Assembly: GCA_022072415.1 (NCBI GenBank)
Contig: JAJVHW010000125.1
Location: 1-41,788, forward strand
Origin: Planctomycetota bacterium
GTDB lineage: Bacteria; Planctomycetota; JAJSAM01; JAJVHW01
Direction: 5' to 3'
DNA: 41,788 nt
In this document: positions 15,781-20,686 of the stretch, piece by piece
Layout: each line of letters begins with the position of its first letter
Position numbering within the stretch: position 1 is the first letter of the stretch
The notes under the pieces: model-generated
The model's database searches: none
What the model saw: the letters and a program-made list of their open reading frames with translations, nothing else
Told to the model about the DNA's origin: nothing
Made by a program: the position numbers and the translations under genes

Positions 15781-18741
15781 TTGAGCACCGCAACCACCAC
15801 GTTCGTGCAGGTTTCCTACCGAAGCGGCATCGCGGACCCGGCGGCGGGCGACGCGCGCACGGCCCTCGAGGCCCATCTCCGCGGCAGGAGGATCGCGTCG
15901 CTCCGGTTCGTGCGCGGATACGTCCTCGACGGCGTGGACCCGGCGTCCGGCGGCCCGCGGGCCATGCGGGACGTGCTGGCCGACCCCGTGGCCGAGGACG
16001 GATCCGTGACGGGCATCCCCGGCGGCGTCGCGCCCGGCGAGGAGGTCCTCACCGTCCTCCGCCGCGCCGGCGTCATGGACCCCGCCGAAGCGAGCTGCCG
16101 CACCGCGCTCCGCGCCGCGGGGATCGAGTGCGCGGGCGTCCGGACCGTGCGGCAGTACGTCCTCCGCGCCGACGGCGCGCCGCTCGGCGCCGACCTCCTC
16201 CGCGAGGCGGCGAAGAAGGCCCTCGCCAACGACGTGATCGAGGAGATCCACGTCGGCGAGCACCTCGACCTCCGGACGCCGCATCCGGCGCCCTACCGGT
16301 TCCAACTCGTCACCGTGCCCCTCCGCGACCTCTCCGACGAACGGCTCGTCGCGCTGTCGAAGGAGCGGACGCTCTCGCTCACGCTGCTCGAGATGCAGGC
16401 CGTGCAGGCGTTCTTCCGGAAGGAGGGACGCGACCCCACGGACGCGGAGCTCGAGACGATCGCGCAGACGTGGTCCGAGCACTGCAAGCACAAGACCCTC
16501 ACGGGCGAGGTCCGCTTCCGCGGGCCCGGCGGCGAGCGCACGTACCGGAACCTCCTCAAGGAGACCGTGTTCGAGGCGACGCGGCGGATCGGGCGGACGG
16601 ACTGCCTCTCCGTCTTCCGCGACAACGCGGGCGTCATCGCCTTCGACGACGAGTACGGCGTCTGCATGAAGGTGGAGACGCACAACCACCCCAGCGCGAT
16701 CGAGCCCTACGGCGGCGCGGGCACGGGAATCGGCGGCGTGATCCGCGACGTCCTCGGCACGGGGCTCGGCGCGAAGCCCGTGCTCAACACCGACGTCTTC
16801 TGCTTCGCGCCGCCGGACATGCCGGAGGGCGACGTCCCGAAGGGCTGCCTCCACCCGCGGCGCGTGATGCACGGGGTCGTCTCCGGCGTCCGCGACTACG
16901 GGAACCGGATGGGCATCCCCACCGCGTCCGGCGGACTCTTCTTCGACGAGCGCTACGTCGGGAACCCGATCGTCTACTGCGGAACCGTGGGGCTGATCCC
17001 GCGGAAGTACGTCGAGAAGGGCGCGCGGCCCGGGGACCGGATCGTCGCGATCGGCGGGCGCACGGGACGCGACGGCATCCACGGCGCCACATTCAGTTCG
17101 GCGGAACTCCACGACGAGTCCGACGTCGTGAGCGCCGGCGCGGTGCAGATCGGGAACGCCATCGAGGAGAAGCGCTGCCTCGACGCGATGCTCCGCGCCC
17201 GCGACGCGGGGCTCCTCCACGGGGCCACCGACTGCGGTGCGGGCGGCTTCAGTTCCGCCGTGGGCGAGATGGGCGCGGAGACCGGCGCCGAGGTGGACCT
17301 CGAGAAGGCGCCCCTCAAGTACCCCGGCCTCTCCTACGCCGAGGTGTGGATCAGCGAGGCGCAGGAGCGGATGGTCGTGGCGGTCGCGCCGTCGGACATC
17401 GCCGCGCTCCGCGCGATCTGCGACGGCGAGGGCGTCGAGATGACCGACCTCGGCCGGTTCACCGACACGGGCCGGCTCGTCCTCCGCTTCGAGGGGACCG
17501 TCGTCGGCGACCTTCCGATGGAGTTCCTCCACGACGGACTCCCGCGCACGCCGCGCGACGCCGAATGGGCGGCCCCGCCGACCGCGTGGACGTGGCCCGC
17601 CCCCCCCGCCGCGGACGGCGGGCACGGCGCGACGCTCCACCGGATCCTCGGATCGTGGAACGTCTGCTCGAAGGAGTGGGTGATCCGCCAGTACGACCAC
17701 GAGGTCCAGGGCGGCAGCGCCGTGAAGCCCCTCGTCGGCGTGCGGAACGACGGTCCGGGAGACGCGTGCGTCGTGACGCCGGTCGTCGGATCGCCGCGCG
17801 GCGTGGCCGTCTCGTCCGGCATGAATCCGCGGCTCGGCGACCTCTCGCCCTACGACATGGCGGCGAACGCGGTGGACGAGGCGCTGCGGAACCTGGCGGC
17901 CGTGGGCGCGGACCCGTTCCGCGCCGCGCTCCTCGACAACTTCTCGTGGGGCAACGCCACGCGGAAGGACCGCCTCGGCTCCCTCGTCCTCGCGTCGGAG
18001 GCGCTCCGCGACGCCGCGATCGCCATGGGCACTCCGTTCGTCAGCGGGAAGGACTCGCTCAACAACGAGTTCACCGCGCAGACGCCGTCCGGCCCGCGTC
18101 TCATCACGATCCCCTCCACGATGCTCGTCTCCGCATTCGGCGTCGTGGACGACGTCCGCCGCTGCGTCACGATGGACGCGAAGGAGCCCGGGAACCTCGT
18201 CTTCGTGGTCGGGATCACGCGCCCGGAGATGGGCGGGAGCCACTTCGCGCTCGTCTCCGGAGCGGCCGGAGGCACCTGCCCGAAGGTCCGCTTCGACGAG
18301 GCGCGCGCGGCGCTCGGGGCCGTCCACCGCGCGATCGCCGCGGGGCTCGTCCGGGCGTGCCACGACGCGTCCGAGGGCGGCCTCGCCGCGGCGCTCGCCG
18401 AGTCGGCCTTCGCCGGCGGGTTCGGGATCGACGCGTCGCTCGTCCACGCGCCGTGGGAGGACGCGGCCGACGGCGGCGCGGACGTTGGTGCGAACGGCGC
18501 GCGCGACGAGGCCCTCCTCTTCTCGGAGAGCCCGAGCCGGTTCGTCTGCGAGGTCCGCACCGGCGACGCGTCGGCGTTCCGCGAGGCGATGGCGGGCGTC
18601 CCCCACGCGGCGGTCGGCCGGGTGACCGAGCGGCCGCGCCTCGTCCTCCGCGGCGTCCGGGAGCGGCTGCTCCTCGACGAGGGAATCGACGCGCTCCGGG
18701 ACTCGTTCACGAGACCCCTCGCGCGGGGAGGCGTCCGATGA
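15781..18741 (+). CDS. purL: PurL with N-terminal PurS-like sequence, FGAM synthase subunit
   Basis: About 986 residues, beginning at a TTG. No ATG suits, and the nearest alternative, GTG at 15805, would cut the first strand. The first 200 residues look like two PurS-like half-units (FVQVSYRSGIADPAAGDA and EVLTVLRRAGVMDPAEAS). Next comes the PurL core: QTWSEHCKHKTL, DEYGVCMKVETHNHPSAIEPYGGAGTGIGGVIRD, and the second ATP-grasp-like AIR-synthase half (VKPLVGVRNDGPGD, SWGNATRKDRLGSLV). The enzyme makes formylglycinamidine ribonucleotide from FGAR, ATP and ammonia in purine synthesis. The glutaminase PurQ is encoded next, overlapping by ATGA. No separate purS is seen in the window, consistent with the fusion. 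Confidence 0.93.
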   Translation: MSTATTTFVQVSYRSGIADPAAGDARTALEAHLRGRRIASLRFVRGYVLDGVDPASGGPRAMRDVLADPVAEDGSVTGIPGGVAPGEEVLTVLRRAGVMDPAEASCRTALRAAGIECAGVRTVRQYVLRADGAPLGADLLREAAKKALANDVIEEIHVGEHLDLRTPHPAPYRFQLVTVPLRDLSDERLVALSKERTLSLTLLEMQAVQAFFRKEGRDPTDAELETIAQTWSEHCKHKTLTGEVRFRGPGGERTYRNLLKETVFEATRRIGRTDCLSVFRDNAGVIAFDDEYGVCMKVETHNHPSAIEPYGGAGTGIGGVIRDVLGTGLGAKPVLNTDVFCFAPPDMPEGDVPKGCLHPRRVMHGVVSGVRDYGNRMGIPTASGGLFFDERYVGNPIVYCGTVGLIPRKYVEKGARPGDRIVAIGGRTGRDGIHGATFSSAELHDESDVVSAGAVQIGNAIEEKRCLDAMLRARDAGLLHGATDCGAGGFSSAVGEMGAETGAEVDLEKAPLKYPGLSYAEVWISEAQERMVVAVAPSDIAALRAICDGEGVEMTDLGRFTDTGRLVLRFEGTVVGDLPMEFLHDGLPRTPRDAEWAAPPTAWTWPAPPAADGGHGATLHRILGSWNVCSKEWVIRQYDHEVQGGSAVKPLVGVRNDGPGDACVVTPVVGSPRGVAVSSGMNPRLGDLSPYDMAANAVDEALRNLAAVGADPFRAALLDNFSWGNATRKDRLGSLVLASEALRDAAIAMGTPFVSGKDSLNNEFTAQTPSGPRLITIPSTMLVSAFGVVDDVRRCVTMDAKEPGNLVFVVGITRPEMGGSHFALVSGAAGGTCPKVRFDEARAALGAVHRAIAAGLVRACHDASEGGLAAALAESAFAGGFGIDASLVHAPWEDAADGGADVGANGARDEALLFSESPSRFVCEVRTGDASAFREAMAGVPHAAVGRVTERPRLVLRGVRERLLLDEGIDALRDSFTRPLARGGVR

Positions 18742-19535
18742 GCGCGGTCCGGGCCGTCGTCCTCCGCACCGCGGGGACCAACTGCGACGCGGAGGCGATG
18801 CACGCGCTCCGGCGGGCCGGCGCGCAGCCGGAACTCGTCCATCTGCGGCGGCTCGTCGAGAAGCCGGAGGAAGCGCGCGGGTACCGCATCTTCTGCTTCC
18901 CGGGCGGGTTCTCGTACGGCGACGACATCGCGTCCGGAGTCGTCTTCGCCGTGGAGATGCGCGCGCGGCTCCTGCCCGCGATCCGCGCCTCCGTGGCCGA
19001 CGGCGCCCTCGCCATCGGCATCTGCAACGGGTTCCAGGTTCTCGCCCGCGCGGGCCTGCTCCCCGACACGCGCGGCGACGGCGGGCCCGAGGCGACGCTG
19101 CTCCACAACGATTCCGGCCGGTTCGAGTGCCGCTGGGTGCGGCTCGAGGCGGTCACCGACCGCTGCGCGTGGCTCTCCCGCGGGCAGGTGATCGAGTGCC
19201 CCGTCGCCCACGGCGAGGGGCGATTCATCGTGAAGGACGAGCGCGTCCGCGAGCGCATGCAGGCCGCGGGGCAGTTCGCGCTCCGCTACACGGCGCCCGG
19301 CGGCGGGAAGCCCGCGTACCCGGCGAATCCGAACGGCTCCCCGGACGACATCGCGGGCGTGTGCGACCCGACGGGGCGGATCCTCGGCCTCATGCCCCAC
19401 CCGGAGCGGAACGTCGAGGCGTGGCACCACCCGCACTGGACGCGTCGGAGCCAGTCGAACGCGGCGCTGCTCGAGACCCCCGGCGACGGACTCGCCGTCT
19501 TCGAGAACGGCGTGCGCGCGGCGCGGGCGACGTAA
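18738..19535 (+). CDS. purQ: Glutaminase subunit of FGAM synthase
   Basis: The 265-residue class I glutamine amidotransferase overlaps the purL stop in ATGA, after a GGGGAGG Shine-Dalgarno. GICNGFQVL contains the nucleophile cysteine, and MPHPERN holds the histidine and glutamate of the triad. PGGFSYGDDIASGVVF is typical of PurQ. It hydrolyses glutamine and channels ammonia to PurL. It is slightly longer than the family's 225-230, like the PurQ of long PurL systems; the extra length is in the loop KPAYPANPNGSPDDIAG. Its TAA stop is immediately followed by the MITE-like element, which may have replaced the native terminator. Confidence 0.94.
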   Translation: MSAVRAVVLRTAGTNCDAEAMHALRRAGAQPELVHLRRLVEKPEEARGYRIFCFPGGFSYGDDIASGVVFAVEMRARLLPAIRASVADGALAIGICNGFQVLARAGLLPDTRGDGGPEATLLHNDSGRFECRWVRLEAVTDRCAWLSRGQVIECPVAHGEGRFIVKDERVRERMQAAGQFALRYTAPGGGKPAYPANPNGSPDDIAGVCDPTGRILGLMPHPERNVEAWHHPHWTRRSQSNAALLETPGDGLAVFENGVRAARAT

Positions 19536-19784
19536 GGCGTCGTCCCGAAACAACTGACACACTTCGTCACGCGGCTTGCGGCGGTTCGCTCGTGCGGATC
19601 CCGCGGTCGCGCAGCGCAAGCCGCGCGCCAGCAAGCTGCCGCGATGCAACGGGCAGTCATGTCAACTGCCTGCTGCGTTGGGCTCGCGCCGCAACTCTCT
19701 CCGTTGAGTTGGCGCCGCTCGCCCGACTTGCAGCCGACTCGCCGCATCGCGGCCAAGTGTGTCACTTGTTTCGGGACGACGCCC
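19536..19784. mobile_element. MITE-like palindromic element with 29-bp terminal inverted repeats
   Basis: The first 29 bases (starting GGCGTCGTCCCGAAACAA) are the inverse complement of the last 29, with one mismatch at position 19. The 249-bp interior has at least three nested hairpins: CGCGGCTTGCG (19570-19580) with CGCAAGCCGCG (19615-19625), GGCAGT (19652-19657) with ACTGCC (19665-19670), and CAACTC (19692-19697) with GAGTTG (19706-19711). The track ORFs here carry no convincing domain. It sits exactly between the purQ stop (TAA, 19533-19535) and the prmC end. No transposase gene is inside, and I see no clear target-site duplication. A non-autonomous element or structured repeat is inferred. 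It fills the 305-base gap. Confidence 0.7.
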
Positions 19785-19840
19785 AAGTCCCGCGTGAAGC
19801 CGGGCCGTTCACGACGGGAACAGGCCGAGGCGTCCGTGCA

Positions 19841-20686
19841 TCACCGCCGGAGGACGGCGACGCGCGGGTGCCCCGCGAGGTCCGCGCGGACGAAAGGGTC
19901 CGCGTAGCCCGCCACGACGCGAAGCGCAGCGATGACCGGCGCGGACTCGGGACCCGGAAGCTCCAGCAGGAGCACGCCGCCGGGCGCGAGCAGCGGCCGC
20001 GCCTCCGCGGCGATCCGCGCGTAGAGGTCCGACGGTTCGCCGTCGCAGAACACGGCGCAGGCGGGCTCCCAGAGCACCTCGGGGTCCACCTCGCCCGCCT
20101 CGATCCTCCGCACGTACGGCGGGTTCGAGAGCATCACGTCGAACGGACCGAGATCGGCGAGCGGCGCCCAGAGGTCGCCGCGCCGGAGCACGACGCGGCC
20201 GCCGGCTCCGTGCGTCCGCACGTTCTCCGCCGCCACGCAGAGCGCCGCGCCCGACACGTCGCTGCCGCAGACGAACGCGTCCGGCGCGTCCGCCGCGATC
20301 GACACGACGAGCGCGCCGCTCCCGACGCCCGCCTCCGCCACGCGCGCCCCCGCCCGCCCCGCGACGGCCCGGAGCGCCTCCTCGACGAGCGCCTCGGTCT
20401 CGGGGCGGGGCGCGAGCACGTCCGCGGTCACGCGGAAGTCCCGCGAACGGAACTCCTTCACGCCGAGGATCTGCGACATCGGCCGCCGCGCCGCGCGGAG
20501 CCGGACGGCGTCGAGGAACCGCGCCTCTTCCGCCGGCCCGATCTCGCGCCCGGGTTCCGCTCGGAGGACCGTCCGGGGAAGCCCGGTCGCATGTCCGAGC
20601 AGCAGCGCGGCGTCGCGCTCGGGAACGGGCACGCCCCCCGCCGCGAGCCGTTCCCGGCCGAGGCGGAGGGCGTCGTGGAGGTTCAC
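19841..20686 (-). CDS. prmC: Release-factor glutamine N5-methyltransferase
   Basis: The 281-residue protein matches PrmC/HemK. The N-terminal helical domain is LHDALRLGRERLAAGG. RPETEALVEEAL precedes the SAM-binding EAGVGSGALVVSIA, and NPPYV is the catalytic NPPY motif that binds the substrate glutamine. The SAM-binding sequence has EAGVGSG where most homologs have DLGTGSG, a mild deviation. It methylates the GGQ glutamine of release factors. It starts with GTG at 20686, 19 bases after the preceding membrane-protein gene, and lies downstream of prfA, its substrate gene, the usual pairing. It ends 57 bases before the MITE-like element on the converging side. Confidence 0.92.
   Translation of the reverse strand: MNLHDALRLGRERLAAGGVPVPERDAALLLGHATGLPRTVLRAEPGREIGPAEEARFLDAVRLRAARRPMSQILGVKEFRSRDFRVTADVLAPRPETEALVEEALRAVAGRAGARVAEAGVGSGALVVSIAADAPDAFVCGSDVSGAALCVAAENVRTHGAGGRVVLRRGDLWAPLADLGPFDVMLSNPPYVRRIEAGEVDPEVLWEPACAVFCDGEPSDLYARIAAEARPLLAPGGVLLLELPGPESAPVIAALRVVAGYADPFVRADLAGHPRVAVLRR

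Follow-up and report, generated by a model that had tools for sequence, protein, structure and literature searches.

Organisation of the locus

The window, i.e. the whole stretch of 41,788 nucleotides analysed here, is contig C17 of the MAG G000 (3.86 Mb, 174 contigs, 76% complete). It carries, between the convergent genes purQ (forward strand) and a prmC-like gene (reverse strand, ending at 19841), a complete 248-bp element with terminal inverted repeats (TIRs) that is very probably a non-autonomous DNA transposon (MITE). The features of the locus are the following.

18738..19535, + strand: purQ, upstream gene (ORF and codon-usage call; putative name from the purL/purQ order and from the earlier note)
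19533..19535, no strand: left target-site copy, TAA, which is the purQ stop codon
19536..19783, + strand: complete candidate MITE copy, 248 bp, ends set by comparison between copies (about 34 full copies in the genome)
19536..19564, + strand: left TIR, GGCGTCGTCCCGAAACAACTGACACACTT, 29 bp
19570..19580, + strand: stem 1, 5' arm, CGCGGCTTGCG, with compensatory variants in copies and relatives
19615..19625, + strand: stem 1, 3' arm, CGCAAGCCGCG, with compensatory variants by covariation analysis
19638..19647, + strand: stem 2, 5' arm, GCCGCGATGC, enclosing hairpins 3 and 4
19651..19671, + strand: hairpin 3, GGGCAGT/ACTGCCT, a length-variable module that is replaced or absent in other copies
19670..19733, + strand: conserved core hairpin 4 (CTGC/GCAG, GGGC/GCCC, AACTC/GAGTT), from fold and alignment
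19744..19753, + strand: stem 2, 3' arm, GCATCGCGGC, pairing with GCCGCGATGC
19755..19783, - strand: right TIR, complementary to the left TIR at 28 of 29 positions
19784..19786, no strand: right target-site copy, CAA, i.e. TAA with one change
19841..20686, - strand: convergent neighbour, putative prmC-like N5-glutamine methyltransferase by sequence (codon-usage call, translation)

The earlier note had described a 249-bp element starting at the base after the purQ TAA. The element is real and its start at 19536 is exact, but its length is 248 bp, base 19784 lying outside as the first base of the degraded right target-site duplication (TSD). The end match that the note had read, 29 bp with a single mismatch (19536-19564 against 19755-19783), was confirmed, and an imperfect match reaches 36 nt at 89%. 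The interior of this copy pairs as CGCGGCTTGCG/CGCAAGCCGCG, GCCGCGATGC/GCATCGCGGC, GGGCAGT/ACTGCCT and GGGC..GCCC/AACTC..GAGTT. The 248 bp have no coding capacity for a transposase, and weak matches elsewhere in the window are due to chance.

Copies within the genome

A BLAST-type search of the G000 assembly recovered about 34 full-length copies and several partial or decayed ones, about 40 in total. The full-length copies are mostly 83-95% identical to the window query, the lowest value being 75%. A search with the TIR pattern gave 85 hits, decayed and one-ended copies included, and the reversed control pattern gave 0. Most copies are 235, 248, 250 or 252 bp long and differ in interchangeable loop modules, the loops varying in both sequence and length. 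Stem 1 occurs in the versions GGCTTGC/GCAAGCC and GGGTTGC/GCAACCC, each combined with several loop versions, which suggests recombination between copies. The recent movement suggested in the earlier note is not demonstrated: any two of 29 aligned copies share 71-98% identity (median 88%), no two are identical, and about half of the TSDs are decayed.

Target site and insertion signature

In 17 of 35 G000 copies the same 3-mer stands on both flanks, well above the 5.5 expected (0 of 20,000 permutations as good). The same holds for related families in two other genomes: G001 has such a match in 5 of 18 copies (p = 0.011) and G004 in 12 of 12. The duplication spans 3 bp, the fourth flanking base almost never matching. 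The duplicated triplet is mostly TGA, TTA, TCA or TAA (T-N-A), and most copies of the G004 family lie within C|TCA|G. Many reconstructed empty sites place the junction exactly at a stop codon; where the element entered a TTAG target, its first G recreates a TAG stop (L004 and L020 in G000; L045, L047 and, with a two-base overlap only, L062 in G001).

At two sites (L050:1386-1658 with its right flank, and G004:C135:4241-4567) two element families stand back to back and share one TCA triplet, and look as if the target duplication of one had served as the insertion site of the other.

Taken together, about 40 genome copies, TIRs, 3-bp TSDs, the lack of coding capacity and the families in relatives are what a MITE would present, and we consider the window element to be one copy of such a family with a probability of about 0.88. 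A DDE transposase supplied in trans would bind the 29-bp TIRs, excise the element and integrate it into a TNA trinucleotide, the 3 bp of which are duplicated. The genome has 72% GC, and in it stop codons are a frequent source of TNA (TGA and TAA, or TCA and TTA when read from the opposite strand); the 3-bp duplication spares the frame and the stop codon of the gene upstream. Copies would for these reasons survive best at gene ends, and best of all between convergent genes, because no promoter or operon is interrupted there.

Placement at gene ends and between convergent genes

Genes were called with a codon-usage caller trained on G000. Overlap with a stop codon was found for 22 of 35 G000 copies (63%), a count that adds to the tool output L018, L027 and L029, judged by their right-hand target copy, and the two TTAG cases. 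The copies lie between convergent genes in 18 of 31 cases (58%), compared with 19-20% of background sites (p ~1e-6), and this bias persists under every background tried. Against a loosely called intergenic background the stop-codon excess is strong (p ~1e-10); with background gaps of 150-300 bp only, an overlap would be expected for 43-56% of copies and is observed for 63%, with p from 0.016 to 0.26. As the excess shrinks in this way, we do not claim active targeting of stop codons; TNA targeting together with selection against gene damage nearly explains the overlap with stop codons.

Related families in sister genera

Related families are present in G001 (JAIOPE01, a Planctomycetota MAG obtained from a lake sample), in G004 and, as a single copy, in G002. 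These genomes stand for three sister genera that belong to the same bacterial family as G000. No related element was found in G003, and a covariance model covering the element interior gave no match in the other 388 of the 392 Planctomycetota genomes under strict filters that weak members could escape. In the wider genome contig collection an exact TIR scan gave 0 matches and an interior scan matched only G001; two viral-contig matches to a core motif were set aside as chance.

The families share the T-N-A duplication and differ in their ends. The TIR is GGCGTCGTCCCGAAACAA in G000. G001 has GTGGCC.. ends in two variants, GTGGCCGTCC and GTGGCCGTGTC. G004 has GAGCGTGAGCAGGAATCCC and GAAGGTGTGGACAAGAG (beginning GAGCGTGAGCAGG.. 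and GAAGGTGTGGAC..), and the one copy in G002, flanked by the TSD TCA, has GAAGGTGTTCCCATCAAC (beginning GAAGGTGTTCCC..). At least four clearly different TIR types thus surround one common folded interior, in which all families have the motifs CGCG..TTGCG/CGCAA..CGCGCGCC, GCGTTG, ACTC..GAGT and CCTTGC. Between G000 and G004, agreement is 33-42% over the outermost 18 bp of the TIRs and 83-87% over the stem-1 arms.

These differences would fit an old non-autonomous lineage whose conserved and functional part is the folded interior rather than the ends. On this view four genera would have retained the interior, the TIRs would have been swapped or evolved anew on at least four occasions, and different transposases would mobilise the same structured module. 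We put this forward tentatively, with more doubt than confidence.

Two hairpins of about 50 bp consist of two TIRs only (L208:1500-1551 and L139:102-149) and are possibly minimal mobile units or deletion products, and the element L044 (G004:C147) is a hybrid whose two ends are of different TIR types; the minimal hairpins and the hybrid show that parts are shuffled. The G004 contigs C11, C36, C88 and C233 end inside an element, assemblies breaking at the repeat, so that copy numbers in the MAGs are underestimates. Another long imperfect palindrome in G001 (L093:1113-1340; 198 nt, 73%), beside a DDE_Tnp_1 ORF, is unrelated to the MITE family.

Fold and covariation

The interior hairpins and strong folding described in the earlier note were recovered. 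The predicted folding energy of the window copy is -154 kcal/mol, against -110.4 ± 5.2 for dinucleotide shuffles (z = -8.5; 0 of 200 as good). In an alignment of 56 copies, pairing is kept in 97.3% of cells across the 50 predicted pairs, and 27 of the 50 show changes on both sides. Cells with both-side changes number 338, compared with 93 in shuffles and at most 43 with the partners slid. Part of this excess is expected, because the structure came from the same alignment and the sequences are related. The covarying pairs fall mostly (18 of 27) in helices 1 and 2, in or beside the TIRs, where matching would be expected if both ends are bound by one transposase. The other 9 are interior (helices 3, 4, 6, 7 and 8), e.g. 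a stem-1 pair that is C-G, U-A or G-C. The double changes that separate genera in the interior carry more weight as evidence. The covariation supports the suggestion of the earlier note that the structure may be under selection. Selection acting on a single-stranded state, RNA or ssDNA, would maintain the folded interior, which may serve transposition or make insertions tolerable.

A reading in which the interior functions as a small RNA or RNA-guided module, and the element as its mobile carrier, would agree with stems kept across genera by compensatory changes while the TIRs diverged, and with loops free to vary in sequence and length. Against it, Rfam gave no match to the element at gathering score and only weak, chance-level ones below it (in the window the one match was a tRNA elsewhere, and the copies had no significant match), no sigma-70-like promoter was found, and the counts of G-U and A-C pairs show no clear strand preference for the fold. 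We regard this reading as unlikely.

The strong fold, the site between convergent genes and the convergent bias of the family would also suit a local bidirectional terminator, or an mRNA-stabilising 3' structure of purQ and prmC, that is not mobile. A single copy lacking relatives, which the earlier note had named as pointing to a terminator, is not what the genome search returned: about 40 dispersed copies with TSDs flank unrelated genes, and the search for intrinsic terminators gave no site of this type with a T tract. Copy number and TSD refute a terminator as the origin of the element, and an immobile structure of this kind is very improbable; once inserted, a copy may act as a terminator.

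REPs are 20-40 bp long and carry an unpaired GTAG or CGTC tag, and Y1 transposases are not known to make a TSD. A REP/BIME element, mobilised by a RAYT or by a TIR-associated Y1 tyrosine transposase, would likewise be palindromic and extragenic, and both REP/BIMEs and CGTC-tagged REPs lie near 3' ends and between convergent ORFs, a placement similar to that seen here (PMC3733652). TIR repeats have also been described around some tyrosine transposases (PMC3733652). The present element differs in its length (248 bp; about 250 bp in the family), its fully paired ends, the absence of an unpaired tetranucleotide tag and its 3-bp TSD, and we give this assignment hardly any weight.

The putative transposase partner

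A matching transposase, which the earlier note had advised looking for, was not found: G000, G001 and G004 showed no autonomous element with these TIRs when single or widely spaced TIR hits were examined for an ORF between matching TIRs. Its absence means little, because the genomes are fragmented, incomplete MAGs. By profile search, the PF01609 members of G000, G001 and G004 carry other ends and PF13586 is absent.

The only transposase ORF found between TIRs is an IS256-family gene on C123 (Transposase_mut, E = 1e-63), in an interrupted MITE copy (L067:520-2171 = G000:C123:8219-9870). Ends of its own, GGGGTACGGTCAAGAGTTGTGGAC, bound the inserted IS, which is flanked by a 9-bp TSD of MITE core sequence, GCGTTGGGC; the MITE sequence runs uninterrupted across the IS. 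A nested IS with its own 9-bp TSD indicates that the MITE copy was already resident when the IS arrived, and the IS256-family gene is ruled out as the autonomous partner, being a nested passenger. IS256-type TSDs are 8-9 bp long. That the MITE is a deletion derivative of the IS within C123:8219-9870, as its TIRs flanking the Transposase_mut ORF might suggest, can practically be dismissed, since the IS is bounded by its own ends and 9-bp TSD and not by the GGCGTCGTCCC.. TIRs of the MITE, whose family duplicates 3 bp. A second copy of the IS256-family transposase ORF, 100% identical over residues 33-488, is present at C3:4824-6191.

The transposase that mobilises the MITE family is probably of the DDE type and IS5/PHIS-like, an analogy drawn from one feature, the TNA target. 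A 3-bp TNA target duplication is common to the family and to IS5/PHIS (PIF-Harbinger, NuwaII); the target of NuwaII is C|TNA|G (PMC4482050), and the IS1031 group has three-nucleotide targets (PMC2516522). As no such transposase with matching TIRs was found by the PF01609 and PF13586 searches, the likeness is a lead to membership and not proof of it.

Significance of the family

As far as literature searches and Rfam show, this MITE family appears to be undescribed. The usual description of a MITE is one of conserved ends around an interior free to vary. The elements resemble bacterial MITEs such as MITEAba12 (PMC6382973) in being short, non-coding, TIR-bounded, TSD-flanked, multi-copy and non-autonomous, and differ in that from genus to genus the interior, with its conserved stems, changes less than the TIRs, and in that no parent IS was found. 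Between genera the usual pattern is reversed, with changing ends around a conserved folded interior in which the changed positions compensate. The placement data give a plain account of how TNA-targeting elements land on stop codons in GC-rich genomes. If the interior serves transposition or the tolerance of insertions, the family would be a natural end-swapped series for testing this.
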